A model generated the notes under the pieces. That model made no database searches and was not told the DNA's origin. It saw only the letters and a program-made list of their open reading frames with translations. From the NCBI RefSeq assembly GCF_000174415.1, contig NZ_ACJM01000021.1, positions 1 through 38,171 of the forward strand: a stretch of DNA of 38,171 bases. The letters run 5' to 3'. A program made the position numbers and the translations under genes. Source of the stretch: Dethiobacter alkaliphilus AHT 1. Lineage in GTDB: Bacteria > Bacillota > Dethiobacteria > Dethiobacterales > Dethiobacteraceae. The stretch's first letter is position 1. Each line of letters starts with the position of its first letter. This document shows positions 2,383 through 24,018 of this stretch, one piece after another.

Positions 2383-3756
2383 CTACAATCCGGCTTGCAG
2401 CACCACCAATTGCACCTCTTTAGCCAAACGCATCGCTTCAGACAATATGATTAAGGCTTCCCGGGAATTATGAAACCCCATGCTGTTTGCTGCAAAAACC
2501 CAATCATAATGTAGGAACGCCCGGAGGTGCAGTTCCTGGGCTATCCTGATATCCTCAGGATCAGCATCCGGTTTTTGACGAAGTTCCTCCACCATCTGTA
2601 CCGCTTGAACCAACTCATCCTCCACCACTGACAGTACCCCCGACACATCAGCCTGAATACGCTCAATACGCTGCACAAGATACTCTTCACTTTCACGATG
2701 GCAGACACCACAGGAAGCTAATGGAGTTTCCAACGGGCTTTCAAAACTATGCGAGGTCATCTTCCTGTCTCCTTTGATCATAAACGGCATATGACAGTCG
2801 GCACAGCTAACACCGGCGTCATGATGGGTACTACCCAGGAAAAATTCATAATCCGGGTGGCGCAGCTTGGGTATTTCTGCACCAGTCAGGGCATGTTCCC
2901 AGGTACGGTACTCCGACAGAGCTAGATAATAGTGCTCCACATTACTTATGTTCGGTTCTTCTGTCCAGGGAATGTTTACCTCCCCGCTTTCCTTATCCAG
3001 ATAATACGTTATGTGGCATTGTGCACACACCAGACTCCGCATTTCCTGACGCCCTGCATTTTTCAGGTCACCACCGGCCCGAACGTACGCCTGAATAAAA
3101 GGTTCTCTTGAAAGACGCAAACCCATTGTTTCCGGGTCATGACAGGCGCTGCAGGAAACAGGATGTTGAACATCCTCTCTCATTTCAGAAAATGATTTTT
3201 TATAAAAATCCGTTCCCATTTGTTCCAAAAGCAGCGGTGCTTCAGCTGCTTTGCAGGTAAGACAGCCCGCTTGGTTATTACGAAGCGGCGCTTCCCGAGT
3301 TACATCGTCCAGAGAATATGGATGGCCACGGTGCTCCCGTATACTCGGCGCTGCATCATAGCCCGCCCATAGTATCTCCAAAGCGGGCCGCAACTTTATT
3401 TTCTGAGGCGGTTCCCCAGCATGCTCCAAGCCTTCTAAATATGACTGGTAGTGGTCCGGGAACCATTGTCCCCAGTTAGCCGGATTTACCTCATTTTCTG
3501 CAATCTGCCACTGCACCGTGGGCCGGGACGGCAGAACATGCCTTTGGTAGTACTGTCTGGTTATAAGTACTCCGCCAGCTATACCGGCAAACAAGCTCAG
3601 AGCGACAAAAATCATCGGCCAAAGCCAACGGTGCTTACAGGCACCAGAGTGGGCCGGCCTATGTTTTTCCGTGCTACGGGCTTTGGCCGCGGCAAAAAGT
3701 GCAGCGAGGGCACCCAGAGGCACCCATATCCAATGCTTTTCATTACCCTTCTTCAT
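2383..3756 (-). CDS. nrfA: Cytochrome c nitrite reductase NrfA (pentahaem, membrane-anchored, Ca-independent type)
   Basis: Catalytic subunit for six-electron reduction of nitrite to ammonium outside the membrane. Five haem sites are visible: CLTCK at 165-169 (the lysine-ligated catalytic haem), then CSACH 202, CAQCH 244, CADCH 318 and CGVCH 349. After haem 3, 'HITYYL' holds the catalytic Tyr (251), and 'LRHPDYE' (298-304) holds the catalytic His (300). In E. coli NrfA the Ca ligands are a Glu just before the Tyr and a Gln just before the His. Here these are Thr250 and Arg299, which is the pattern of the Ca-independent subclass described from Geobacter lovleyi. Unlike classical secreted NrfA, residues 1-70 have two hydrophobic stretches (9-26, 45-66) and no clear cleavage site, so the enzyme is probably anchored. 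The gene follows nrfH by 13 bases. Confidence 0.95.
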   Translation of the reverse strand: MKKGNEKHWIWVPLGALAALFAAAKARSTEKHRPAHSGACKHRWLWPMIFVALSLFAGIAGGVLITRQYYQRHVLPSRPTVQWQIAENEVNPANWGQWFPDHYQSYLEGLEHAGEPPQKIKLRPALEILWAGYDAAPSIREHRGHPYSLDDVTREAPLRNNQAGCLTCKAAEAPLLLEQMGTDFYKKSFSEMREDVQHPVSCSACHDPETMGLRLSREPFIQAYVRAGGDLKNAGRQEMRSLVCAQCHITYYLDKESGEVNIPWTEEPNISNVEHYYLALSEYRTWEHALTGAEIPKLRHPDYEFFLGSTHHDAGVSCADCHMPFMIKGDRKMTSHSFESPLETPLASCGVCHRESEEYLVQRIERIQADVSGVLSVVEDELVQAVQMVEELRQKPDADPEDIRIAQELHLRAFLHYDWVFAANSMGFHNSREALIILSEAMRLAKEVQLVVLQAGL

Positions 3757-3769
3757 ACATAAACCCCAC

Positions 3770-4180
3770 CTATAATCTATGTGGCGTCTGCCTGTGACAG
3801 TGCTGGCACTCTAAGCGCTCATGCAGCGGGAGCTCTCGAAGCAGCGCTTCATGACAGCGGATACAATTCTCCCGGACAATTCGGGGAGTAGGCGGTTTTG
3901 CCCTATACAAATCCGGGGTATCCCCCAGAAAGTAAGCATAAAAATCCCTAATCCCATAGCGTGGTGACCAAAAAAACTCCCGAATATCCTGCGGAATATG
4001 ACAGTCCTTGCAATTGGTAACGGGCCTGTGGGCAGAATGAAACCAGGTTTCATAAAATATCTCTACCCCATGGCACAGATTACAAAATTCCGGTCGTTCC
4101 TGAAATTCATAAGCTCGCCATCCTGTCAAAAGGAAAAGGAATAATAGCGCAACCAGCAATCCAGCTTTTAAAATTTTCAT
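3770..4180 (-). CDS. nrfH: NrfH: NapC/NirT-family tetrahaem quinol dehydrogenase
   Basis: Passes electrons from menaquinol to NrfA. The 136-residue protein starts with one transmembrane anchor (about residues 4-22, 'AGLLVALLFLFLLTGW'), followed by four CxxCH motifs: CNLCH, CKDCH, CIRCH and CQHCH. This is the NrfH pattern, in a protein somewhat shorter than the ~150-160 usual. In family members the first haem motif reads CHxM, with Met as the axial ligand. Here it reads CHGVE, so the Met is Val. Only the nrfH-nrfA pair is present, with no nrfI/ccs-type assembly genes nearby. It is transcribed first in the two-gene operon. A 15-nt palindrome lies upstream. Confidence 0.93.
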   Translation of the reverse strand: MKILKAGLLVALLFLFLLTGWRAYEFQERPEFCNLCHGVEIFYETWFHSAHRPVTNCKDCHIPQDIREFFWSPRYGIRDFYAYFLGDTPDLYRAKPPTPRIVRENCIRCHEALLRELPLHERLECQHCHRQTPHRL

Positions 4181-4366: not shown

Positions 4367-5539
4367 TTAATGTTGAGTACTGTGATTAAGTTTCAGTTCA
4401 TCCATGTAATACCCAGGGAAATTTTTCAGCACATCATGGGCCGGTGAGATGATGATATTCGCCTTATTCTGCAGATACTCACCGTGATCGGCCAGACCCA
4501 GGACATGTTCTGTTTGCCTGATTATATACTTTTTTACAGGATTTACAGGCTCAATATCCCGTTTTAAAGCCTGATAAAAATCCAGGGCAAGCTCCTTCGT
4601 ATTTTCCTGAGCAGACAACAGCCTGATAATGTGAGCACGGAGCAGCAGGGCAATTTCGGAATTTTTCAGCCTGGACAGCACCTGTGGCTTGTCAACCAGA
4701 TAGGTAATATAGTCCGAAACCACGGGCGGCAATTCTTCCGTTTCACCCACCAAATACTCCACCAGGAACGCATCAATTATATTCAGGGTAAAAACATGGA
4801 CCTCCCGTTTTCCGTATTTCTCCGCCAACTCGTTGAGCAGCACTTCTTTCAGATAGGTATTTTGTCGCCTTATCTTTTCCGGTTCGGAAGATAATAGCAC
4901 ATACTGATACAACTGCATGGCCGCAAAAAAGCGGTCGTTTTTGCAGAGCTTGTAGGCCGGAAAATCGCCCACAAAAGCCTCGGTCTGAAACATGCTGCTG
5001 ACTATGATTAACAAAGTAATTACCGTCAGTGAGCCAAGATAAACAAGCCATGCGGCACTTAAACTCCCGCTGCCCAGAAAAAAAGAAATTATGATAATCA
5101 CCGAAACCAACCAAAGAAAAATGGAAGCAACGGGACCGGCAATAATAGCCCTGGCGTAGGCTTTTTGCATCTTTTGAAAGTTATGCTCATCCTCAATTAC
5201 GCCCACATCGGGTACAACCAATCCACCAATAAGAGTCATACTGTTTGGACGAAACTTTAAGGTCCACCTGCCGTTTTCCGTAATAAACAAAAAGGCAGAT
5301 AAATATAGCGCACGCATCTTAACCCCGTCAGTTACGAAGCTGATAAAATGGCCCATCTCATGCACAACCAGGGAAACAAAAAAAGTCAGGATAAAAATCA
5401 AAACCGGGGCATAGCCGGGCAGTTGGAAATATCCGCCTGCACCGGCCACAATAAAGCCCGCCAAAAACCCTATGGCCAGAAAAATAAGGCTAACCATTAA
5501 TTTTCTAAGAATGTGGTCCTTACTACGTTTTTTCCTCAA
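4367..5539 (-). CDS. Membrane metalloprotease-like protein, M50 (site-2 protease) type
   Basis: 390-residue membrane protein. The N-terminus has two helices (about 12-35 and 42-62), the second leading into 'VVHEMGHF', an HExxH zinc motif inside a hydrophobic context as in S2P/SpoIVFB-like intramembrane proteases. Two more hydrophobic segments follow around residues 134-152 and 164-186, and then 'FVGDFPAYKL', a plausible counterpart of the second S2P motif (NxxPxxxxDG), though poorly conserved. The last ~200 residues are soluble and helical with no recognised domain. The start is TTG 5539: AAGGAG lies eight bases upstream, and a nearby ATG is out of frame. Substrate unknown. It may be a conserved-residue-poor S2P relative rather than a classical protease. 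Confidence 0.75.
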   Translation of the reverse strand: MRKKRSKDHILRKLMVSLIFLAIGFLAGFIVAGAGGYFQLPGYAPVLIFILTFFVSLVVHEMGHFISFVTDGVKMRALYLSAFLFITENGRWTLKFRPNSMTLIGGLVVPDVGVIEDEHNFQKMQKAYARAIIAGPVASIFLWLVSVIIIISFFLGSGSLSAAWLVYLGSLTVITLLIIVSSMFQTEAFVGDFPAYKLCKNDRFFAAMQLYQYVLLSSEPEKIRRQNTYLKEVLLNELAEKYGKREVHVFTLNIIDAFLVEYLVGETEELPPVVSDYITYLVDKPQVLSRLKNSEIALLLRAHIIRLLSAQENTKELALDFYQALKRDIEPVNPVKKYIIRQTEHVLGLADHGEYLQNKANIIISPAHDVLKNFPGYYMDELKLNHSTQH

Positions 5540-5571
5540 CTGGCATACTCCTTAGAATGCTATATTAACTG

Positions 5572-5602
5572 CTAAAAAGCGCAGCTTTTGTGGCTGCGCT
5601 TT
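5572..5602 (-). terminator. Intrinsic terminator of hisF
   Basis: A perfect 10-bp stem, AAAGCGCAGC (5576-5585) with GCTGCGCTTT (5593-5602), is followed on the minus strand by further T residues. Confidence 0.85.
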
Positions 5603-5613
5603 GTGCATGCCTG

Positions 5614-6375
5614 CTATTTTGCCACTGCTATTCCCTGCCCCGCCAGATACTCTTTTAAGTCAGGGACAGCAATTTCACCGAAGTGGAAAACCGAAGCTGC
5701 CAGGAGGATATCAGCCCCCGCCTGGGCGGCTTCCAGGAAATGTTCCTTGCTGCCGGCACCGCCTGAAGCCACCACCGGCGCACTGACCACTTCTTTAATG
5801 CCGCGTATCAGTGGCAGATCGTAGCCGGTTTTAGCACCGTCACATGCTTTACTGGTGGGCAGGATGATAGAGGCTCCCCGTGCTTCCGCTTCTTTGGCCC
5901 ATTCTATGGCGTCTTTGCCGGTGGCGGTATTGCCCCCGTCCACATAAACTTCATAACCGGAGGGCAAAGCCGCATTCTTGTCCACATCAATGGCCACCAC
6001 CACTTTTTCCCGGCCAAAGAGTTTAACCGCCTCATCTATGAGTGCTGGATTGCGAAAAGCAGCGCTGCTCATGGACACGCGGTCTGCTCCTGCCGCCAGC
6101 ACAGCTTCCGCATCGGCAGCACTTTTGATCCCGCCTCCCACGGTAAAGGGAACGGTGGTGACAGCAGCCACCTTCTTAACCGTTTCCAACATGGTTTTAC
6201 GTCCTTCAATGGTGGCGGTAATATCCAAAAAGGCCAGTTCATCCGCCCCGGCATCACAATACGCCCGCGCACTCTCCACCGGATCTCCGGCATCCTGTAA
6301 CCCCACAAAATGCACACCTTTAACCACACGCCCGTCCTTAATATCCAGACAAGGCATAATCAGCACCTTTGACAT
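5614..6375 (-). CDS. hisF: HisF-family cyclase, lone and divergent
   Basis: 253-residue TIM barrel of the imidazole glycerol phosphate synthase cyclase family, which closes the imidazole ring of IGP with ammonia from HisH. The catalytic aspartates are present: D11 in 'PCLDIKDGR' and D130 in 'AIDVD'. Phosphate sites 'VGGGIKS' (79-85) and 'ASGGAGS' are also intact. The loop usually reading 'TSMDRDGTKxG' is here 'TSKACDGAKTG' (174-184). Its Asp is kept but the neighbouring M, D, R and T are all changed, and 'NTAA' is 'MSSAA'. No hisH or other his gene is adjacent. ATG 6375 was chosen over GTG 6384 because AAGGGG lies eight bases before it. It may be the histidine enzyme at a separate locus, or a paralogue for another amidotransferase-linked sugar pathway. 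Confidence 0.85.
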   Translation of the reverse strand: MSKVLIMPCLDIKDGRVVKGVHFVGLQDAGDPVESARAYCDAGADELAFLDITATIEGRKTMLETVKKVAAVTTVPFTVGGGIKSAADAEAVLAAGADRVSMSSAAFRNPALIDEAVKLFGREKVVVAIDVDKNAALPSGYEVYVDGGNTATGKDAIEWAKEAEARGASIILPTSKACDGAKTGYDLPLIRGIKEVVSAPVVASGGAGSKEHFLEAAQAGADILLAASVFHFGEIAVPDLKEYLAGQGIAVAK

Positions 6376-7236: not shown

Positions 7237-7932
7237 TTAGCCCCCCGTCTTTTCCAGGTAAAGTGTAAAACGCCTGTTAGCCAGAATATAGGCCGGCACC
7301 AGCCAAAGGATAAGGCCGGCCATGGCAATTGCCGGATGGTAGGGAATAGCAAGCCCCGCAGCCACGTAGAGCAGGCGTAGTAAAAGTGTGGCCGGGATAA
7401 TCTCCACCAGGAAATGAGTCAGGCCAATCACGGTGAGAAATGCGGGCCCCATCAAAATAAGACCTGCCGGAATGCCTATGACCAGGTAATTATTAAGCGA
7501 GCGGGCCATGGAACCCACCGCTATCCCAAAGAGTGTAAACACTGCGGACCCAACCAATATAGCCGCTGTAAGCAGCAGGTAATTAACGCCGCCCCTTAAC
7601 CCTATGCCGGCAATCACCAGCCCTGCCAAAGTGGAGACCAAACCAAGGGAAATAACCTTAGCCCAGATATATTCGGAAATGGTGGCAGGAACTATGGAAA
7701 AATAGCTATGCAGCCCTTCACCCTTCTCCAAAAGCAGAATTCCGCCAATAAAGATAAATCCCAATCCGGCCGGATCAGACATGATAATTACAGCAGCACC
7801 TACGCGCTGGACTTCCGCCGGCAGCAAAAACAGGATGGCGATATAAACTGCGGATACATAGAGATAGAGAAAATAAAACCCGTACTTAAACTGATAGTGG
7901 ATGTCGGCTAATAATACCCGGGAAAACCTCAT
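7237..7932 (-). CDS. ABC-2-type transporter permease, first subunit
   Basis: 231-residue membrane protein with about six helices. 'LLEKGEGLHSYFSIVPATISEYIWAK' is the loop equivalent to 'LDERDERIGTYYSITP' in the partner permease, showing that the two are paralogues. ATG 7932 overlaps the TGA of the ATPase gene (ATGA), so this start is preferred to one three codons upstream. It ends three bases before the second permease. Function is the membrane channel of the exporter. Confidence 0.82.
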   Translation of the reverse strand: MRFSRVLLADIHYQFKYGFYFLYLYVSAVYIAILFLLPAEVQRVGAAVIIMSDPAGLGFIFIGGILLLEKGEGLHSYFSIVPATISEYIWAKVISLGLVSTLAGLVIAGIGLRGGVNYLLLTAAILVGSAVFTLFGIAVGSMARSLNNYLVIGIPAGLILMGPAFLTVIGLTHFLVEIIPATLLLRLLYVAAGLAIPYHPAIAMAGLILWLVPAYILANRRFTLYLEKTGG

Positions 7933-8780
7933 TGCAGGCACCTGCCCGTCAGTTCGATGAACACATCTTCCAGAGTTGGCTCCTTGGAATGTATTCCGGT
8001 AAGAACCCCTGCATCCAGGCGGCGTCTGAATTCAGGGTCCTGATGCAGTGAAGACAACAGAGTGCCGGCTGCTTTCTCCTGCCCATCTTCGCGGTAAGTA
8101 TAATTTACTTCCACACCGCTTTTTCTGGTGCGCAGGGCTTGGGGTGTATCCAGCGCCCTGATTTGGCCATCCACAATGAAAGCCACCCGGTCACACAGTT
8201 CCTGGGCATCATGCATGTTATGGGTGGTGAAAATAATCGTTCTTCCCTCTTGCTTTTGCTCCAGAATCATATCTTTAATATTGCGGGCATGAGCAGGATC
8301 AAGCCCGCTGGTGGGCTCATCGAGAAACAGTATGGACGGCTTATGCATAATGGCCCGGATAAAGGCCAGACGCATCTTCATCCCCTTAGAGTAGCCGGCA
8401 ACTTTTTTATCTGCATGTTCACTTAAGCCCACCCGCTGTAAAAGCTCCTGCGGGTTATGGGAGTCTCGCTGATAAAGAGAAGCAAAATACTGCAGATTTT
8501 GCAGACCGCTAAATTTAGCGTACAAATTGGGGAATTCAAAATCCACCCCCAGCTCCTCATAGAAACGATTCGACCGGTTTTTGACTTCCGTGTTCAGTAC
8601 CTTCACACTACCCCGATAATCCCGCAAAATACCGGTAAGGATTTTCTGCAGCGTGCTTTTTCCCGCTCCCGAAGGCCCCAGAAAACCAAATATTTCTCCC
8701 CTGCCAACTTCAAAAGACATATCCCTGATAAATGGCTGTTGCTTTGTATAGGAAAATTGCAACTCGCTGACCTTAATCAT
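7929..8780 (-). CDS. ABC transporter ATP-binding protein (drug/peptide export type)
   Basis: 283-residue ATPase. Walker A 'GPSGAGKST' lies near residue 35, the signature is 'YSKGMKMRLAF' (a degenerate 'YSxGMxQR' typical of ABC-2 exporters such as DrrA and CcmA), Walker B is 'ILFLDEPT', and the H-loop is 'TTHN'. The C-terminal ~70 residues ('GVLTGIHSKEPTLEDVFIELTGR') match the 'PSLEDVF' tail of DrrA-type exporters. The ATG overlaps the TGA of the TetR gene by four bases and its own TGA overlaps the next ATG, giving a strictly coupled operon. It energises the two downstream permeases. Confidence 0.9.
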   Translation of the reverse strand: MIKVSELQFSYTKQQPFIRDMSFEVGRGEIFGFLGPSGAGKSTLQKILTGILRDYRGSVKVLNTEVKNRSNRFYEELGVDFEFPNLYAKFSGLQNLQYFASLYQRDSHNPQELLQRVGLSEHADKKVAGYSKGMKMRLAFIRAIMHKPSILFLDEPTSGLDPAHARNIKDMILEQKQEGRTIIFTTHNMHDAQELCDRVAFIVDGQIRALDTPQALRTRKSGVEVNYTYREDGQEKAAGTLLSSLHQDPEFRRRLDAGVLTGIHSKEPTLEDVFIELTGRCLQ

Positions 8781-10648: not shown

Positions 10649-10667
10649 GACAAAGCAGTAAATAAGC

Positions 10668-10697
10668 AAAAGCACTGACCGATGTCAGTGCTTTTTT
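10668..10697 (+). terminator. Intrinsic terminator after the deacetylase gene
   Basis: AAAAGCACTGAC pairs with GTCAGTGCTTTT (4-nt loop) and is followed by T. It can also work on the minus strand, after the lipid kinase. Confidence 0.9.
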
Positions 10698-10702
10698 ATC
10701 AG

Positions 10703-10734
10703 AATGATTAATAACATTAAACCTGACCCCCAGG
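10703..10734 (-). repeat. Dispersed repeat, copy B, forming the end of the lipid kinase gene
   Basis: On the minus strand this reads as the family core GGGGGTCAGGTTTAA then TGTTATTAATCATT. It begins inside the kinase gene and supplies its last codons (Pro-Gly-Gly-Gln-Val) and the TAA stop at 10717-10719. Confidence 0.8.
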
Positions 10735-11625
10735 CATCAGCAGTTCCAGCCTTCCCGGTAGAATTGAATAATCAAGGCTGTCTACCTCCTGTGGGAAAAG
10801 TTCACCGTCACTGTGTGCCGGAGACAGACGTTTAAGGCGAACCCGAATGCGGGTGGTGTGGATTTGCTGCACCCCTTCGGCATAAATATAGGTTCCTTTG
10901 GGCGACATGGCCTTGGGTAAAAGAAGTAACGTGCCTAGGGCTGTTTTTTTGTTCACCATCACCGCAGTCAGCTTTCCGTCAAAGGGATCGGCGTGAGGAG
11001 CCATAAAGAACAGCCCCCCGGTCCGGGGCGCATTGCCCACTGAAATCAGGGTCAGCGGCCCTTCATAGTATCCGTCGTCCCATTCAACACGGGCTTCCCA
11101 CTTGGGATTGGCAAATATCCCTTTAAGGGCGGCGGCCAGATAGCGGGGAATCCCCTTTAACCACTTAATTTCCTGCTGAATCGTTGACACATAAGGTTCC
11201 AGTCCCAGTGCCGAATTGTTGACAAAATACTTCTCACCCGCTTTACAGACATCAAGCATCTGCACGCTGCCGGCGGCAATCACTTTTGCTGCTTCAGGCA
11301 AATCCCTGGGCAGCCCCAGATTGCAGACTAAATCATTGGCGGTACCCAGCGGCATAATGCCCAACCGGCCCACCTTCTCCTCGCCGTTGGCCAAAGCCAG
11401 ACCATTTACCACCTCACCGATGGTGCCGTCTCCACCTGCGGCAATGATGGGGGAAAAGCCCTCCAAAGCAGCCTGCCGGGCAAGCTCCACAGCCTGTCCA
11501 TGATAATCTGAAACAGCCAGGGAAAAATCTACGCCTGCCGCTTTTAAGGCAGCTTCCGCTTCCGGCCAGCGCCGTTTGGCGTTCCAGCGGTTTGAATAAG
11601 GGTTAAGAACCACTTTTGCAGTCAT
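10717..11625 (-). CDS. Diacylglycerol kinase/YegS-BmrU family lipid kinase
   Basis: 302-residue soluble lipid kinase. 'NPYSNRWNAKRRW' is at the N-terminus, followed by the nucleotide-binding 'AAGGDGTIGEVVNGL' (about 60-74) and 'GIMPLGTANDLVCNLGLP', the hallmark motifs of the DAGK catalytic domain. The C-terminal half has 'ISVGNAPRTGGLFFMAPHADPFDGKLTAV', also typical. It probably phosphorylates diacylglycerol or a related lipid at the membrane face. ATG has AGGAGAG upstream. The last five residues and stop are encoded by a dispersed repeat (copy B), so the native C-terminus may have been replaced. It is not obviously in an operon with the CoA-transferase genes: a 135-base gap with another repeat copy separates them. 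Confidence 0.9.
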   Translation of the reverse strand: MTAKVVLNPYSNRWNAKRRWPEAEAALKAAGVDFSLAVSDYHGQAVELARQAALEGFSPIIAAGGDGTIGEVVNGLALANGEEKVGRLGIMPLGTANDLVCNLGLPRDLPEAAKVIAAGSVQMLDVCKAGEKYFVNNSALGLEPYVSTIQQEIKWLKGIPRYLAAALKGIFANPKWEARVEWDDGYYEGPLTLISVGNAPRTGGLFFMAPHADPFDGKLTAVMVNKKTALGTLLLLPKAMSPKGTYIYAEGVQQIHTTRIRVRLKRLSPAHSDGELFPQEVDSLDYSILPGRLELLMPGGQV

Positions 11626-17066: not shown

Positions 17067-17861
17067 TTATAAAGTTCTGGCGTTTTCTATGGCCATTTTA
17101 ATCTGAGGGAGCAGTTCTCTGCTCAGCTTGGTGTCATATGCAAAAACTAACCCATCTGCGTGGGCAGCCACCGCCTGCACAGCAGCAAGCAAATCTTTTT
17201 CTTTAGGGCCCTTCATGTAGATCTCTACATAAAGCGGTTTAGTTAATCTTCTACGAAACGCATTGGCCAGAACTTCCATCCAATATGGAGATTTGTAGGT
17301 CATGTCATAAAGGGGAACAAGAAAAAAGTCGGCATATTGCTCCAGGCTCTTAAGGTCCAGGCCAAACCGCTCAGGGTGTACAGGATCTGGATAAAGTGAT
17401 AGTGATAAAGGCATTGTATCCGGCAGTATGGATTTTACTTCTCCGATAAAATCAGTTACAGTTTTACAGCGCCATATCTCCCAGGTAAGGCCGGACTCCT
17501 GCCAGAGTTTCTGGCAGCGGGAACAGCTACAGTAGCTGGGGCCCGGAAGCCCGATGCAGTCAAGGTGAATACCTGCTACTTCCTGCTTCGATAGGTTTAA
17601 AATGTATTCTTTTAACTCCTGTCTGTAACTTTCAGCACTAGGGCAGATGCATTGCCACAGTCTCTGTTCGCCTTCTCCTGAACCTACAGCACAAAGCTCC
17701 GTTTCTTTTTTTCCCAGTTCATTGTTGCCGAAGCAGCTTACAATATTATGTACTCCAGGAGCAGGCTCCTTGCTTATACCGCTTACAGGCTTGACCTGAT
17801 AGAAAGTCCTGTCAAAATCATCAATTTTCTTCGCATGATTATTCAGTACACCTAAATCCAT
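17067..17861 (-). CDS. B12-riboswitch-associated TIM-barrel-like protein, unknown function
   Basis: 264 residues, not assigned. The central part ('AGIHLDCIGLPG', 'MPLSLSLYPDPVHPERFGLDLKSLEQYADFFLVPLYDMTY', 'HADGLVFAYDT') has the strand-helix rhythm of glycoside-hydrolase-like TIM barrels, with an aspartate after strand 4 and 'VPLYDM'. A cysteine-rich stretch 'YCSCSRCQKLW' follows, with further Cys in 'CICPS' and 'CFGNN', suggesting metal binding. No signal peptide. ATG 17861 has GGGAGG eight bases upstream. It is the only gene downstream of the minus-strand cobalamin riboswitch and lies beside the corrinoid transport operon, so a corrinoid-related role is inferred. The GH-like fold and the B12 link are both tentative. 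Confidence 0.6.
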   Translation of the reverse strand: MDLGVLNNHAKKIDDFDRTFYQVKPVSGISKEPAPGVHNIVSCFGNNELGKKETELCAVGSGEGEQRLWQCICPSAESYRQELKEYILNLSKQEVAGIHLDCIGLPGPSYCSCSRCQKLWQESGLTWEIWRCKTVTDFIGEVKSILPDTMPLSLSLYPDPVHPERFGLDLKSLEQYADFFLVPLYDMTYKSPYWMEVLANAFRRRLTKPLYVEIYMKGPKEKDLLAAVQAVAAHADGLVFAYDTKLSRELLPQIKMAIENARTL

Positions 17862-17952
17862 GTCCTAAACCTCCCTTTTTAGATTGAAAATACAAGCTCC
17901 ACCGAGATATTTACTTCTTGTCTCATACCTCTAACCTGGGTAGAGGCACCGC

Positions 17953-17994
17953 AAAAAAAATAAAGTCCAGCCTTCGGTAAAATGAAAGCTGGAT
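17953..17994 (-). terminator. Intrinsic terminator in the leader of the 17.1-kb gene
   Basis: TCCAGC (17966-17971) pairs with GCTGGA (17989-17994), and on the minus strand a run of eight T (17953-17960) follows closely. Its CCTTCGG (17971-17977) is also complementary to CCGAAGG at 18063-18069, just past the riboswitch, so an alternative pairing is possible. Confidence 0.7.
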
Positions 17995-18008
17995 AATTCC
18001 AACAGAAA

Positions 18009-18037
18009 ATAAAAATGCCACAGCAAGCGGCGTGGCA
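18009..18037 (-). terminator. Riboswitch expression-platform terminator
   Basis: On the minus strand TGCCAC (18032-18037) pairs with GTGGCA (18016-18021) and TTTTTATTTT follows. It lies about 45 bases past the aptamer and is the expected B12-responsive terminator. Confidence 0.75.
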
Positions 18038-18081
18038 ATGCCCACTCACCTTCACCTTTCACCCGAAGGAGGTAAATACTC

Positions 18082-18236
18082 ACCTAGGCAGGTCTCCTGG
18101 CTTACATGTCATCATCTGCCCCAACCTTCCCAACCTGAAACCAGTCAGTGGTATAATAGGGGCAAACTCTCTGCTTACAGTGGCGGGACCGCGCCGGATT
18201 CTCACCGACTTCCCTTTTAAGTCAATACACCTATGT
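18082..18236 (-). ncRNA. Cobalamin riboswitch aptamer
   Basis: Read on the minus strand, the conserved B12-box elements are present in order: AGGTG near the 5' end, AAAAGGGAAGTCGGTG, then GAATCCGGCGCGGTCCCGCC and ACTGTAAGC, and finally AAGCCAGGAGACCTGCC. Two terminators follow before the 17.1-kb gene, so it most likely acts by transcription attenuation. Confidence 0.93.
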
Positions 18237-18267
18237 GCACAGTATGCAGTTGTTTTATACTGTAAAT

Positions 18268-18296
18268 AAGCTAACATTTTTTTGCCAGGTTGTCAA
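18268..18296 (-). promoter_or_regulatory. Promoter of the minus-strand riboswitch transcript
   Basis: TTGACA (18291-18296 complement) is a perfect -35, with a 17-base spacer and TAGCTT as -10 (18268-18273). The insertion sequence ends only 13 bases upstream of the -35, so it left the promoter intact. Confidence 0.7.
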
Positions 18297-18309: not shown

Positions 18310-18322
18310 TCATGCGATTTTT
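18310..18322 (+). repeat. Target-site duplication, left copy
   Basis: TCATGCGATTTTT occurs here and again at 19530-19542, immediately flanking the IS30-family element. Confidence 0.8.
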
Positions 18323-19529
18323 GCTTCATTGTAAAATGAGATGCACCAGTGGTAACATTGCAAAATAAAAATGCGCCACAGCCCAATACCGTGTATGATT
18401 GATGTACGACCAACAATCAAAATACGGAGGTTTGGACTATGGCACACTCACAGCATACCACAATCCCACGGGAATTCAAACACTTGACATTGGATCAAAG
18501 AGGCATGATCGCTGCTTACCACGAATCAGGGCTCTCTACTAGGCAGATTGGAGCGAAGATAGGCTGTGACCACACAACAGTGTCCAGGGAGCTAAAGCGT
18601 GGCACAGTGCTACAGAGAAACAGTAATCTTACAGAGCGTTATGAGTACTTTCCTGATGCAGGGCAAAGGGTGTATCGTGAAAACCGCTCACACTGTGGTG
18701 CCAGATTCAAATTAGCTGATGTCAGTGCTTTTATGGATCACGCCCAAAGGATGATGCGCGATAAAGAGTGGTCACCTGACGCCATTGTGGGCGAATACAA
18801 GATAAACCCGAAGACCGCTGGCTTACCCTGTATCTGCACAAAGACCCTCTACAGCTACATAGATAAGGGCTTCATGGATACCAGAAACATTGACCTATTG
18901 CTAAAGGTCGGCCGCAAGGTTCGGAAGAAACGCAGCCGAATAAATAAGCGCAATCTTGGCGAATCGATAGAGAACAGGCCCCCAGAAGTCGCCACCAGAG
19001 AAACCTTTAGCCACTGGGAGATCGACACTGTGATCGGCAAGCAGTCAGAGGGCCAATCGCTTCTGACACTCCTTGAGCGAAAGAGCCGGGTCTTTCTTAT
19101 ACGACGACTCGAAGAGCACACTGTAGAATGTGTAAACGAGGCTCTAGTGGCTCTACAGAGAGATTACGGGGATGATTTCGCCCAGGTATTCCAGACGATT
19201 ACAGCAGATAACGGCAGTGAGTTCTCTGGTCTGTCAGACCAGCTCAGTAGCCTCGGTAGTAAAGCGTACTTTTGCCATCCGTACAGCTCCTGGGAAAAGG
19301 GTGCCAATGAAAAGCACAACAGCTTAATACGAAGGTTCCTTCCCAAAGGAACGTCATTTGCGGATCTCACACCCGAGTCCGTCGCCCGTATACAGAATTG
19401 GTGTAACAATCTTCCTCGGAAGATTCTTGGGTATCTTACACCATTACAAGCTTTCCACGCCGAAAGACTTGCTGCTGCTTGACTTCTCACCGGCACGGTG
19501 GGGTGGTGCATTCGCTATTGCAATTGAGG
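18323..19529 (+). mobile_element. IS30-family insertion sequence
   Basis: 1207 bp holding one transposase gene. The ends are imperfect inverted repeats: the left 25 bases (18323-18347) and the reversed right 25 bases (19505-19529) agree at 16 positions, with ATGCACC identical at the inner side. 13-bp direct repeats flank it. The element sits between the two divergent cobalamin riboswitches. Confidence 0.85.
18439..19482 (+). CDS. IS30-family transposase
   Basis: 347 residues, apparently intact. An N-terminal helix-turn-helix ('LDQRGMIAAYHESGLSTRQIGAKIGCDHTTVSREL', about 17-52) binds the element ends. The DDE catalytic core has 'HWEIDTVIG' (first Asp), 'TADNGSEF' (second Asp) and 'EKGANEKHNSLIRRFLPKG' (Glu region), with the 'W.K..NE..N...R.F.PKG' pattern that identifies the IS30 family. 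The end 'RKILGYLTPLQAF' is also typical. ATG has GGAGG eight bases upstream. No frameshift or internal stop is seen, so the element may still move. Confidence 0.96.
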   Translation: MAHSQHTTIPREFKHLTLDQRGMIAAYHESGLSTRQIGAKIGCDHTTVSRELKRGTVLQRNSNLTERYEYFPDAGQRVYRENRSHCGARFKLADVSAFMDHAQRMMRDKEWSPDAIVGEYKINPKTAGLPCICTKTLYSYIDKGFMDTRNIDLLLKVGRKVRKKRSRINKRNLGESIENRPPEVATRETFSHWEIDTVIGKQSEGQSLLTLLERKSRVFLIRRLEEHTVECVNEALVALQRDYGDDFAQVFQTITADNGSEFSGLSDQLSSLGSKAYFCHPYSSWEKGANEKHNSLIRRFLPKGTSFADLTPESVARIQNWCNNLPRKILGYLTPLQAFHAERLAAA

Positions 19530-19542
19530 TCATGCGATTTTT
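19530..19542 (+). repeat. Target-site duplication, right copy
   Basis: Identical to 18310-18322 (TCATGCGATTTTT). Confidence 0.8.
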
Positions 19543-19616
19543 TATATTCTTCGAAAATTGTACATTGTTTTTTTATGGGATTTATGATAGTATTTCATAA
19601 ACTTAATAAAAGCTAT

Positions 19617-19775
19617 AGACAGGTGCTCGTTACGAGAGTAAAAGGGAACCGGGTGCAAATCCCGGACGGTCGCGCCACTGTAACCGGCGAGATTTTCCAT
19701 AGAACCACTGAAGCTTCAGCTTTGGGAAGGTATGGCAAATCGTTTGAGTCGGAAGTCAGGAAACCTGCCTGTTTA
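19617..19775 (+). ncRNA. Cobalamin riboswitch aptamer
   Basis: The plus-strand element has ACAGGTGC at the start, then AAAAGGGAACCGGGTGCAAA followed by TCCCGGACGGTCGCGCC and ACTGTAACC, and the closing GGAAGTCAGGAAACCTGCC. It controls the btu operon and is the mirror-oriented counterpart of the riboswitch on the other side of the IS30 element. Confidence 0.96.
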
Positions 19776-19832
19776 TGCAAAAGAACATCTTTCGCGCCAA
19801 AGGATGGGTTGCTTTCTTTAATGTCTGCTTGT

Positions 19833-19867
19833 AATTACCCTCCAAATAAAGGAGGGTAATTTTTTTT
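19833..19867 (+). terminator. B12-responsive terminator upstream of btuF
   Basis: A perfect 11-bp stem AATTACCCTCC/GGAGGGTAATT (19833-19843 with 19851-19861) is followed by T8. It lies between the riboswitch and btuF. Confidence 0.92.
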
Positions 19868-19900: not shown

Positions 19901-20887
19901 ATGCAGAAAGTGTCAAGAGTGTTTTTTATTTTAGCGCTGGGATTATTGTTGGTTTTTGCAGCCGGTTGCGGTAATGCAAATGATGCTAATGAGCCTAATG
20001 GACCCAACGGTGCCAACGGCTCTAATGGTATTGATGATGCCAATGGTTCTGAAAGTCAATCATTTGCGGAATTGACTGACCAAATGGGGCGGAATGTTGT
20101 CATTGAAGAAAAGCCGGAAAGGATAGTATCACTGTCTCCCAGTAACACGGAAATGGCTTTTTCTATAGGCTTAGGCAGCAGAATAGTCGGTGTAACTGAT
20201 TTTTGCGACTATCCGGCAGAAGCATTAGACGTAGATAAGATTGGCGGCTTTTCTGATCCCAATATGGAAATAGTTTACAGCTTAACACCTGATTTGGTTT
20301 TAGCAGGTAATGCTCATGAAGAACAGGTAAATAAACTGGAAGAGTTGGGTATTCCCGTACTTGTTCTTGCACCCGAATCGATCGAAGAAGTATTTGCGGC
20401 CATGAATTTAATCGCGGAAGCTACAGGAGCAAGCGAGGCTGACAAGGTTATCACTGAAATCACAGACAGATTAGCACTCTTAGACGAAAAAATTAGCACA
20501 TTATCATCAGAAGACCGAGTACAGGTTTATTACGAAGTTTATTCAGATCCCTTGATGACAGCCGGAGGGACAACTTTAATCAGCGAAGTTATTTCCATTG
20601 CCGGTGGGGACAACATTTTCACAGATGTAGCTGAAATGTATCCACAGATTAGTGAAGAGACAATTATCGAAAGAGATCCAAGTGTTATTGTCATCCCCAA
20701 CTACCATGGATTTGAAGGCTTTGATATGGAAGTCATTCTAGACAGACCTCTGTGGAACGAGATCAATGCTGTAAAAAACGAGAGAGTATTTAATATTAAT
20801 GCCGATGCTATTTCCCGTCCCGGCCCTCGTTTAATAGAAGCAGCAGAGACTTTAGCACCTATCTTTCATCCGGAACTATTTGATTAA
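19901..20887 (+). CDS. btuF: Corrinoid ABC transporter substrate-binding lipoprotein BtuF
   Basis: 328 residues. The signal peptide has lipobox 'FAAGC' with the acylated Cys at 23. A low-complexity linker of Asn-Gly-Pro-Ala repeats (about 24-50) tethers the domain to the membrane. The rest is a periplasmic-binding-protein type III fold: 'DQMGRNVVIEEKPERIVSLSPSNTEMAFSIGLG', 'VGVTDFCDYP', 'LTPDLVLAGN' and 'GGDNIFTDV', typical of BtuF/FhuD-like binders of vitamin B12 or haem/siderophores. A cobalamin riboswitch directly upstream identifies the ligand as a corrinoid. First gene of the operon btuF-btuC-btuD-DUF71. Confidence 0.92.
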   Translation: MQKVSRVFFILALGLLLVFAAGCGNANDANEPNGPNGANGSNGIDDANGSESQSFAELTDQMGRNVVIEEKPERIVSLSPSNTEMAFSIGLGSRIVGVTDFCDYPAEALDVDKIGGFSDPNMEIVYSLTPDLVLAGNAHEEQVNKLEELGIPVLVLAPESIEEVFAAMNLIAEATGASEADKVITEITDRLALLDEKISTLSSEDRVQVYYEVYSDPLMTAGGTTLISEVISIAGGDNIFTDVAEMYPQISEETIIERDPSVIVIPNYHGFEGFDMEVILDRPLWNEINAVKNERVFNINADAISRPGPRLIEAAETLAPIFHPELFD

Positions 20888-20918: not shown

Positions 20919-22004
20919 ATGATACTACACCGAGAGCAGTATGAGCAGAAAAAAATAAGAGTCAAAAGCAGTACCCTATTAATTTTATTAACCCTGTTAT
21001 TAATTGTGATGTCCTTCATAGCAATAGTGGCAGGAGCTGCTTCGATCCCTCTTAGTTCAGCAGTTAGCATACTGCTCTCACCCTCCCAAATCTATTATGC
21101 CGTCGTTAAAGGAGACGTTGCAGATATTCAACACGGAATTCTTCTGCTAATGCGACTGCCCCGGGTTATTCAGGCAGCTATTGTCGGTGCTTCTCTTGCT
21201 GTGGCAGGAGCAGTACTGCAGGGGCTTTTTCGCAATCCTATGGCAGACCCCTATGTTCTGGGGGTTTCTTCCGGTGCTGCACTGGGAGCAGTAATAGCAA
21301 TGTTAACAGGCGGCAGTTTGTTATTAGCCGGTTTCACAGCCGTTCCTCTATTTGCGTTTATTGGCGGTATTTCAACCATTGCACTGGTTTATTACATGTC
21401 CCGTGTAGGTAAAGCAGTCCCGGTGATGACTCTACTTTTGGCTGGAATAGCTGTAAGTGCCTTTCTTTCTGCCTTTGTTTCTTTGCTTACCTATTTTGCA
21501 GGGGAGAGATTGCACCAGGTAATTTTTTGGATGATGGGCGGCTTTGGTGGCGCCACCTGGTCCAGGGTATTTACCATGCTTCCTTATATTTTGGTAGGTT
21601 TCACCTGTATCTACTACTATGCCAGAGAATTAAATGTGTTCTTGTTAGGTGAAGAAACTGCTCGCCATTTGGGAGTAGATACTGAGAAAGTAAAAAAAAT
21701 ACTGCTTGCCTCCTCTTCTTTGCTTGTGGCAGCAGCAGTATCCACCAGTGGTATCATTGGCTTTGTCGGATTAGTTGTTCCACACTTCATTCGCATAATT
21801 GTGGGACCTGATCATCGCATCTTACTTCCTGCATCAGCTCTGCTTGGGGCTAATTTACTCATTGCTACAGACACTTTGGCGCGGACCATAATTGCTCCCG
21901 CAGAACTCCCGGTAGGGATTATTACGGCTATGGTCGGTGCTCCAATGTTCATTTATCTTCTTAAAAAAAGGAAAAAGCTTCGCTATTTCAATAGCAGTAG
22001 CTAG
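20919..22004 (+). CDS. btuC: Corrinoid ABC transporter permease BtuC
   Basis: 361 residues with about ten transmembrane helices of the FecCD/BtuC family. Conserved elements are 'RLPRVIQAAIVGASLAVAGAVLQGLFRNPMADPYVLGVSSGAALGAV' in the first half, the coupling region 'LGVDTEKVKKILLASSSLLVAAAVSTSGIIGFVGLVVPHFIRIIVGPDH', and 'ELPVGIITAMVGAPMFIYLL' at the end. The N-terminal ~25 residues are basic and cytosolic. ATG follows GGAGG at a ten-base distance. It forms the membrane channel with BtuD, fed by BtuF. Confidence 0.94.
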   Translation: MILHREQYEQKKIRVKSSTLLILLTLLLIVMSFIAIVAGAASIPLSSAVSILLSPSQIYYAVVKGDVADIQHGILLLMRLPRVIQAAIVGASLAVAGAVLQGLFRNPMADPYVLGVSSGAALGAVIAMLTGGSLLLAGFTAVPLFAFIGGISTIALVYYMSRVGKAVPVMTLLLAGIAVSAFLSAFVSLLTYFAGERLHQVIFWMMGGFGGATWSRVFTMLPYILVGFTCIYYYARELNVFLLGEETARHLGVDTEKVKKILLASSSLLVAAAVSTSGIIGFVGLVVPHFIRIIVGPDHRILLPASALLGANLLIATDTLARTIIAPAELPVGIITAMVGAPMFIYLLKKRKKLRYFNSSS

Positions 22005-22013
22005 GAGGTATAA

Positions 22014-23282
22014 ATGAGTTTACAACTAAAGATACATGAACTAACCATGGAGTATGATGCTCACCCTATTCTGGATGGAGTTAATTTTAGTATTCAGGGC
22101 GGAGAAATGATTGCCCTTTTAGGTCCCAACGGAGCAGGAAAATCTACACTGATGCGCTGTATCAGCAAAGCTCTGGAACCAAGCAGCGGAACAGTGTTAT
22201 TTAACGACCGTGAAATACGCAGTTTATCATCTGGAGAAATAGCACGCCAACTTGCCGTAGTTCCACAGGATACAGGAGTAGATTTTGATTTTACTGTGGA
22301 AGAAGTAGTGCAAATGGGCAGATTTCCTTACCAGAAAGGTTGGCGCAATGCTGAAAATAGTGATGATTCTCTTGTTCACTCTGCCATGGAAACTACAGGA
22401 ATTTTAAAGTTGCGGCATCGCTCCGCTGCAACCTTAAGCGGTGGAGAGAGACAAAGGATGGTTTTCGCCCGGGCTCTGTGCCAGGAGCCTGAGCTGCTTC
22501 TTTTAGATGAACCGACAGCAAACCTGGACATAGGCTACCAATGGGAATTATTACATATAGCGTTAAAACTCAATAGAGAAAAAGGAGTCACCATCATTGC
22601 TGCCATTCATGATCTAAATTTGGCTACTTTGTTCTTTAGTCAGTTTATTTTATTATCCGCTGGCAAAGTGTTATCCATTGGCAGCAGTGAAGAAGTACTT
22701 ACCGAAACGAATATTTCAAAATCATATGGTGTTCCGGCCACTATTTTTCGTCACCCTCTGCATGGCCGTCTGCAAGTTAGCATTGGTAAAGAAAACATAT
22801 CCCCCCGGCAGCAAAGTGAAAGATACCCCCAAAAGAGGATACATGTGGTTGGCGGCGGTAGTGAAGCATTGCCAATATTAGAAGCTCTTTTGGCAGCTGG
22901 ATATTCTGTATCAGTTGGTCCTGTCAGCAGAGAAGATAGCGGCTATCACTTTGCCCGCTTTTATGATCTTCCAGTCATGGAAAACCCACCATTTTCACCG
23001 ATTAATGAAGAAATGTATCAAAAGCATCTACAGCTTATGCATGAAGCAGAATGTGTAATTTTGCCACCAATCTCTTTTGGTGAAGGCAATCTGCGCAACC
23101 TTGAAGCGATGACTGAAGTAGTTGGACAGGGAGTTATGGGGATTGTTTTGGAATCACAAAATAGTGCACGAGATTTTACCGGTGGTAAAGCAGCAACTTA
23201 TTTGCAACAATTACAAGAAGGCGGTGCCCTTTTCTTTAATAAAGAAGAGCATGCAATTAAGCACCTAAAAATGCTTAAATAG
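22014..23282 (+). CDS. btuD: Corrinoid ABC transporter ATPase BtuD with a C-terminal extra domain
   Basis: 422 residues, about 160 longer than a plain FecE/BtuD ATPase. The first ~260 residues carry Walker A 'GPNGAGKST' (37-45), Q-loop 'VPQDTG', signature 'LSGGERQR', Walker B 'LLLLDEPT' and H-loop 'IHDLN'. The last ~150 residues, from 'RIHVVGGGSEALPILEALLAAGYSVSVGPV' to 'FFNKEEHAIKHLKMLK', form a second alpha/beta domain with a glycine-rich loop 'VVGGGSEA'. Such an extension is recurrent in Firmicute corrinoid transporters, but I do not know its function; a nucleotide- or corrinoid-binding role is possible. AGGAGG precedes the ATG; ten bases separate it from btuC. Confidence 0.93.
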   Translation: MSLQLKIHELTMEYDAHPILDGVNFSIQGGEMIALLGPNGAGKSTLMRCISKALEPSSGTVLFNDREIRSLSSGEIARQLAVVPQDTGVDFDFTVEEVVQMGRFPYQKGWRNAENSDDSLVHSAMETTGILKLRHRSAATLSGGERQRMVFARALCQEPELLLLDEPTANLDIGYQWELLHIALKLNREKGVTIIAAIHDLNLATLFFSQFILLSAGKVLSIGSSEEVLTETNISKSYGVPATIFRHPLHGRLQVSIGKENISPRQQSERYPQKRIHVVGGGSEALPILEALLAAGYSVSVGPVSREDSGYHFARFYDLPVMENPPFSPINEEMYQKHLQLMHEAECVILPPISFGEGNLRNLEAMTEVVGQGVMGIVLESQNSARDFTGGKAATYLQQLQEGGALFFNKEEHAIKHLKMLK

Positions 23283-23361
23283 AGAACACGTTTTTTTGCA
23301 AGCTGGACACCCGGTGCAAGATAAGTGTTTGTTAAATGCAAAGAAACCTGGGACTGAAAGG

Positions 23362-24018
23362 ATGATTCTTTTGAAAGAGAAAGTGTTTGTATCCTGGAGT
23401 GGTGGAAAAGATTCCTATCTGGCACTGCTAAAAGCACAGGAGCAGGGTCTGGATATACAGTATTTGCTGAACTTTATTGGTCATGAGGGGCGAAGCATGT
23501 CTCACGGTCTGTCCGAAGAAATTTTGAGAAAACAGGCCGCCGCACTGGGCATTCCCCTGGTAATGGAGCAAGTTAGCTGGGGCACTTATGAAGAAGGCTT
23601 TCGCAGTGCTGTAAATAGATTTAGCAGTAAAGGGTTAACTGGTGGTGTATTTGGGGACATAAACATTGTAGAGCACCGTGAGTGGGTGCAAAATATGTGT
23701 GGCAAACTGGGTTTGGCTGCTCATCTCCCCCTATGGGGCATGGAGGAAGAAGACGTTATCACGGAACTGGTGGCCAGGGATGCTCAACTGCTCATTGTAT
23801 CTATTGATAAAACTTCTCTGCCTCAAGATTGGTTGGGCCAAAAAGTAAACAAAGATTTTTTGCTGGCCTGTAAAGCAGCTGGGATTAGCCCCTGTGGTGA
23901 AAGAGGAGAATACCATACTCTGGTCGTCGGTGGCCCACTCTTTACAACACCTTTAGAAGTAGAACACCAGGGTATTTATGAAACAGAGAAAACATGCTTT
24001 TTGCAACTCAGCATATAA
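23362..24018 (+). CDS. DUF71/COG2102 PP-loop ATP-binding protein, B12-salvage type
   Basis: 218 residues. The N-terminal PP-loop 'SWSGGKDS' (11-18) binds ATP for adenylation or amidation. 'GVFGDINIVEHREWVQNMCGKLGLAAHLPLWG' is the usual middle motif, and 'GERGEYHTLVVGGPLF' replaces the 'GEGGEFET' of diphthamide ligases. Comparative genomics has linked this DUF71 subgroup to B12 salvage rather than diphthamide synthesis, and position as last gene of the riboswitch-controlled btu operon supports that. Start is taken at ATG 23362; TTG 23371 has slightly better spacing to AAAGG. The upstream open frame (from 23296) has no signal for translation. 79 bases separate it from btuD. Confidence 0.85.
   Translation: MILLKEKVFVSWSGGKDSYLALLKAQEQGLDIQYLLNFIGHEGRSMSHGLSEEILRKQAAALGIPLVMEQVSWGTYEEGFRSAVNRFSSKGLTGGVFGDINIVEHREWVQNMCGKLGLAAHLPLWGMEEEDVITELVARDAQLLIVSIDKTSLPQDWLGQKVNKDFLLACKAAGISPCGERGEYHTLVVGGPLFTTPLEVEHQGIYETEKTCFLQLSI

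Follow-up and report, generated by a model that had tools for sequence, protein, structure and literature searches.

Many users of vitamin B12 import cobamides and must convert foreign ones. The enzymes already named with remodelling activity are CbiZ, CbiR and one CobS. CbiZ is an adenosylcobinamide amidohydrolase (PF01955), while CbiR of Akkermansia is a TIM-barrel enzyme of the AP endonuclease 2 superfamily (PF01261) that was found, by reasoning like that used here, in a genome without CbiZ (PMC7733943). A further remodelling enzyme, if the present candidate, traced by its riboswitch and recurrent neighbours, proves to be one, would change predictions of which microbes use which cobamides. 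Two further systems are relevant for comparison. MtgB of the Bathyarchaeia, a methoxyaromatic:corrinoid methyltransferase, is described as two genes for proteins of about 300 residues with 44.85% identity, divided into three groups; the MT2 MtgA, the corrinoid protein MtgC and a transmembrane protein are encoded in the same cluster. Purified MtgB_2 removed methyl groups from guaiacol and vanillin and passed them to MtgC (PMC10989822). The GH42 beta-galactosidases (3tts, 1kwg) combine a (beta/alpha)8 barrel with a zinc-type cluster of the form Cys-x(~40)-Cys-x-Cys-x2-Cys (PMC8573354).

The gene described here lies in a window of 38,171 nucleotides, which is the whole stretch of DNA analysed, from Dethiobacter alkaliphilus AHT 1. 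Feature coordinates are collected in Table 1. The gene encodes a protein of 264 residues and has a good ribosome-binding site. Queried alone, the protein matched no Pfam or NCBIfam model, and searches of PHROGs and of the PDB by sequence also gave nothing useful; the gathering score of PF13200 (DUF4015) was not reached. It resembles CbiR in its predicted TIM barrel, its setting among cobamide genes where CbiZ is missing from the genome, and its proposed role, but it has no match to PF01261. It likewise shares no sequence match with CbiZ (PF01955), which is nevertheless a recurrent neighbour of the family and a likely partner in one pathway. We consider it reasonably probable that the protein acts in corrinoid salvage. 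Counted for this role are the aptamer and terminators upstream of the gene, its pairing with btuFCD, the content of the B12 regulon, and the linkage to BtuFCD and CbiZ within its clade.

Table 1. Coordinates of the barrel gene, its leader and the neighbouring features in the window.
Feature	Position	Strand	Details
Barrel gene ORF	17067-17861	minus	264 aa; ATG start; GGGAGG upstream
Expression platform	17966-18037	minus	Two terminator-like hairpins, 18037-18016 and 17993-17966
Cobalamin riboswitch aptamer	18070-18249	minus	RF00174 full length, model 1-189; 119.9 bits; E 1e-29
Putative promoter TTGACA-17-TAGCTT	18268-18296	minus	From sequence; just outside the insertion element
Target-site duplication, left copy	18310-18322		13 bp, TCATGCGATTTTT
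IS30-type insertion sequence	18323-19529	plus	1,207 bp; transposase ORF 18439-19482
Target-site duplication, right copy	19530-19542		13 bp, TCATGCGATTTTT
Second cobalamin riboswitch aptamer, btu operon	19604-19786	plus	RF00174; 116.3 bits
Terminator-like hairpin of btu-operon riboswitch	19833-19861	plus	
BtuF-type corrinoid-binding lipoprotein	19901-20887	plus	Peripla_BP_2
BtuC-type permease	20919-22004	plus	
BtuD-type ATPase	22014-23282	plus	C-terminal extension
Dph6-like ATP pyrophosphatase	23296-24018	plus	Diphthami_syn_2; last btu-operon gene

The original prediction placed a B12 aptamer and a terminator before the gene, and both were recovered. The aptamer far exceeds the RF00174 gathering score of 31.5, and two terminator-like hairpins stand between it and the ATG. 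The leader also folds much more strongly than its shuffles (z -3.6, 0 of 200 shuffles). The strong -35 promoter that had been predicted is present in part: TTGACA (18296-18291) is perfect, but the TAGCTT -10 element 17 nt downstream is weak, and the promoter scan does not list the two as a pair. A separate promoter between the terminators and the ATG had been named beforehand as evidence against riboswitch control. It was looked for, and the scan found no promoter-like pair from the second terminator to the ATG. The riboswitch presumably represses the gene.

The predicted divergence from a corrinoid uptake operon with a riboswitch of its own was confirmed by the second aptamer and the btuFCD genes that follow it. 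What the original prediction had missed is the IS30-type element that sits between the two riboswitches. Two partial copies of this element are found elsewhere in the genome, at contig ends, and they stop at positions equivalent to 18323 and 19529 of the window; a perfect 13-bp repeat brackets the same borders. Without the element, the aptamers would be 135 bp apart. This distance and the 13-bp duplication indicate that the gene and the btu operon formerly stood back-to-back and that each had a B12 switch to itself. The element is no part of the B12 system, yet it splits the divergent pair. It was considered as a source of the promoter and rejected, since the -35 hexamer lies outside its border.

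Seven cobalamin aptamers are present in the genome, including the two in the window. Four of the remaining five precede corrinoid or cobalt genes, namely those for CbiM/CbiO cobalt uptake, CobT, BzaB/ThiC-type proteins with a methyltransferase, and BtuFCD with cobyric acid synthase; the fifth precedes a gene without an NCBIfam match. Every assigned target of the B12 regulon is concerned with corrinoid or cobalt supply. CobT and bza genes were found in this genome and CbiZ was not. The two BzaB/ThiC-type genes and the methyltransferase (L134, 2067-5760) are probably for anaerobic lower-ligand synthesis. An apparently secreted protein without an NCBIfam match is encoded behind a cobalamin riboswitch (L132, 2044-2910).

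The protein had been described from its sequence as TIM-barrel-like, with a glycoside hydrolase-like rhythm, no signal peptide and a CSCSRC cluster. All four features were upheld, the rhythm at the level of fold, and the location of the protein is read as cytosolic. The AlphaFold model is confident (mean pLDDT 91.6) and has eight strands in barrel order, as in a (beta/alpha)8 barrel. PgaB was the top Foldseek match. VIA-align gave Z 20-22 for Cwp19 and PgaB and about 17-19 for GH42, over most of the model, and GH191 was also among the matches. The predicted barrel is therefore glycosidase-like. No corrinoid methyltransferase of another family was among the fold-search matches listed, which does not by itself speak against kinship with one. 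Four cysteines (Cys73, Cys111, Cys113, Cys116), to which CSCSRC contributes, are invariant in all 38 sequences aligned. They align with those of 3tts and are spaced as in the GH42 cluster, and we regard them as a putative zinc-type cluster. Further invariant residues are Gly28, Trp69, Pro158-Asp159-Pro160, Arg165, Gly167, Tyr189 and Phe202. In the model, beta-4 terminates in Asp101 and beta-7 contains Glu213. Both positions are also acidic in the nearest relatives, in the copies from other Bacillota and in the largest group of haloarchaeal ones.

These fold matches raise the question of whether the protein is a true glycoside hydrolase that acts on carbohydrate and is under B12 control by accident. 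Among family members, weak matches to the putative glycosyl hydrolase domains GHL6, DUF4015 and DUF4838 of Pfam occur, although not in the 264-residue protein, and the homologue from Nitrososphaeria archaeon JZ2_bin.220247 (locus L041) exceeds the DUF4015 cut-off (30.1 bits versus 27). However, the protein has no signal peptide, no carbohydrate genes surround it, and the corrinoid context recurs; we rate a carbohydrate substrate as quite improbable. In comparison with GH42, it is much shorter, has no sugar context, and the catalytic Asn-Glu motif is unmatched in the sequence alignment, which does not place Asp101 on the GH42 Glu.

The single protein retrieved no relatives from genome contigs, whereas an alignment-based search did so (274 stretches confirmed, 80 kept). 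Iterated searches place the relatives in a few Bacillota, in Bathyarchaeia and in haloarchaea, where the genes are on plasmids as well as chromosomes. In an unrooted tree of 38 sequences, a split with support of 100/99 sets the Dethiobacter protein, on a long branch, and all Bathyarchaeia copies apart from those of haloarchaea and other Bacillota. All B12-linked members fall on the Dethiobacter side. It had been stated beforehand that widespread homologues without a B12 connection would speak against the prediction. Such copies are indeed common in haloarchaea and other Bacillota, at the loci examined, but they form the separate clade. Rfam scans of 17 homologue loci detected no cobalamin switch, and the reading that every homologue is B12-linked was ruled out by these loci; most haloarchaeal copies follow pyrB-pyrI. 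The other Bacillota relatives come from genomes with B12 riboswitches elsewhere in eight of nine cases, none of them near the gene.

Within the B12-linked clade, the L041 homologue is 41% identical to the Dethiobacter protein. Its gene is found on one strand in the order BtuF, homologue, radical SAM, CbiZ, BtuF, radical SAM, BtuC, BtuD, aminotransferase. The radical SAM genes of this locus (4886-5908, 7832-8722, 10665-11429) are interleaved with btuF, CbiZ and btuC. Searches of the class and family of this archaeon yielded one further copy only. The cluster was read in eight genomes of the Bathyarchaeum family, and in every one CbiZ is flanked by between one and three paralogues. Genes for CobS, a B12-binding protein, MtrH and a carbon-nitrogen hydrolase are present in most of these clusters as well. 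The eight clusters are of shared descent and so carry less weight as independent evidence. The original suggestion of a corrinoid-related role is hence favoured by the regulon content and by independent BtuFCD/CbiZ linkage in Bathyarchaeia, and weakened by the unlinked clade.

Genes that stand alone behind B12 switches may also encode B12-independent replacements, as with MetE, which replaces MetH. A stand-in for another pathway, made when a B12-dependent isoenzyme cannot work, would suit a single gene behind a B12 switch and the homologues without B12 linkage in other lineages. It would not lead one to expect a place next to btuFCD in genomes as unlike as those of the window and L041, or next to CbiZ in eight clusters, and we hold it to be improbable.

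The paralogues beside CbiZ were initially candidates for pure salvage genes. This reading was dropped given their MtrH and corrinoid-protein neighbours and the published account of MtgB, and they are now regarded as probable MtgB genes. Two of them, p1 and p2, have 300-302 residues, with pair identities of 45.0-45.3% in two genomes and 58.7% in a third. Their cluster also has an MtrH-type MT2, a corrinoid protein and a membrane protein, and p3 forms a third group. From gene order, length and pair identity, set beside the published description, we infer that p1 and p2 correspond to MtgB. Probable MtgB genes flank CbiZ at L160 (6439-11478), L159 (6308-10918) and L163 (6270-10925). A profile of the family built without these paralogues matches them nearly full length (E about 1e-56 to 1e-73). 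MtgB has been described as exclusive to Bathyarchaeia, but its superfamily appears to include proteins from haloarchaea and Bacillota. If p1 and p2 are MtgB, the Dethiobacter protein is of the same superfamily and shares its four-cysteine cluster and its PDP and RxG motifs. It differs in being bacterial, shorter (264 residues against about 300), about 31% identical to p1 and p2, and encoded behind a B12 switch; the neighbouring genes are btuFCD, with no adjoining MT2 or corrinoid-protein gene. Part of the reason why these paralogues are linked to CbiZ may be that methyl transfer needs a supply of cobamide. For Bathyarchaeum tardum, cobalamin synthesis is reported to be incomplete and the O-demethylase requires cobalamin (PMC10477458), a need that may account for CbiZ in the MtgB-like cluster.

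This kinship suggests methyl or alkyl transfer as the chief rival reaction. The protein could strip the upper alkyl ligand of imported corrinoids or demethylate lower ligands that carry a methoxy group, for example 5-methoxybenzimidazole. The MtgB hallmarks of the paralogues, the strength of the profile matches, and the BzaB-type genes and methyltransferase of the Dethiobacter genome would all agree with this. However, the acids at 101 and 213 are kept in the Dethiobacter protein and absent from p1 and p2, MtrH was not found in its genome, and a corrinoid-protein gene is missing from beside the gene. Transfer of this kind is unlikely on balance. A related alternative is a catabolic O-demethylase, an MtgB-like MT1 that acts on an external methoxylated compound and is only incidentally controlled by B12. 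Homology to the MtgB-like proteins and three B12-binding_2 corrinoid-protein domains in the genome are in line with such a function. Repression by B12 has the wrong sign for a pathway that uses B12, though, and the lack of an MtrH-type MT2 in the genome and the assigned regulon, all corrinoid or cobalt supply, also argue against it; this function is very improbable.

Our leading, if tentative, account is that the protein is a cytosolic cobamide-processing salvage enzyme, with hydrolysis of the nucleotide loop or lower ligand as its likeliest reaction. When cobamides are scarce, the riboswitches would allow transcription of the gene and of btuFCD. BtuFCD would import foreign cobamides, the presumed substrate, and the barrel protein would process them for rebuilding into the form used by the cell. 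The glycosidase-like Asp101/Glu213 pair may hydrolyse them on the side of the nucleotide loop and lower ligand. The products would feed CbiZ where it is present, and reassembly through CobT and Bza in the Dethiobacter genome. Such a role would resemble that of CbiR or CbiZ in a member of neither family. Hydrolysis on the loop side is favoured because the acid pair is kept, the L041 gene stands just upstream of CbiZ, and the Dethiobacter genome has loop-building genes and no CbiZ. The hydrolytic mechanism itself is less certain than the salvage role as a whole; since p1 and p2 lack the pair, the clade as a whole cannot share a chemistry that depends on it. Counted against this account are the missing pair in these paralogues, the shared descent of the eight CbiZ clusters, the unlinked homologues in haloarchaea and other Bacillota, the nearest solo relatives (L040, L042, L129, L168), which lie outside corrinoid operons, and the long branch. 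It is possible, and proposed with more hesitation, that the family is a novel enzyme class for salvaging or remodelling cobamides, with no relation to CbiZ or CbiR and built on a glycosidase-like zinc barrel, with the Bathyarchaeia MtgB as an offshoot of a superfamily that reaches haloarchaea and Bacillota.

The gene is present in one of 97 genomes of its own class, making horizontal gain likely. In four other-clade Bacillota genomes examined, neither MtrH nor B12-binding_2 proteins were found; as the Bacillota genes of that clade also lack a nearby switch, the family is unlikely to have begun with methyl transfer of the MtgB type. At the haloarchaeal loci (L044-L119), where neighbours were read with an acidity filter against false ORFs in GC-rich DNA, about 45 have the homologue downstream of pyrB-pyrI, and a Nudix gene frequently comes next. 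Elsewhere in the window, at 2383-4180, a pair of multihaem cytochromes resembles NrfA and NrfH as judged from a reading of their sequences.
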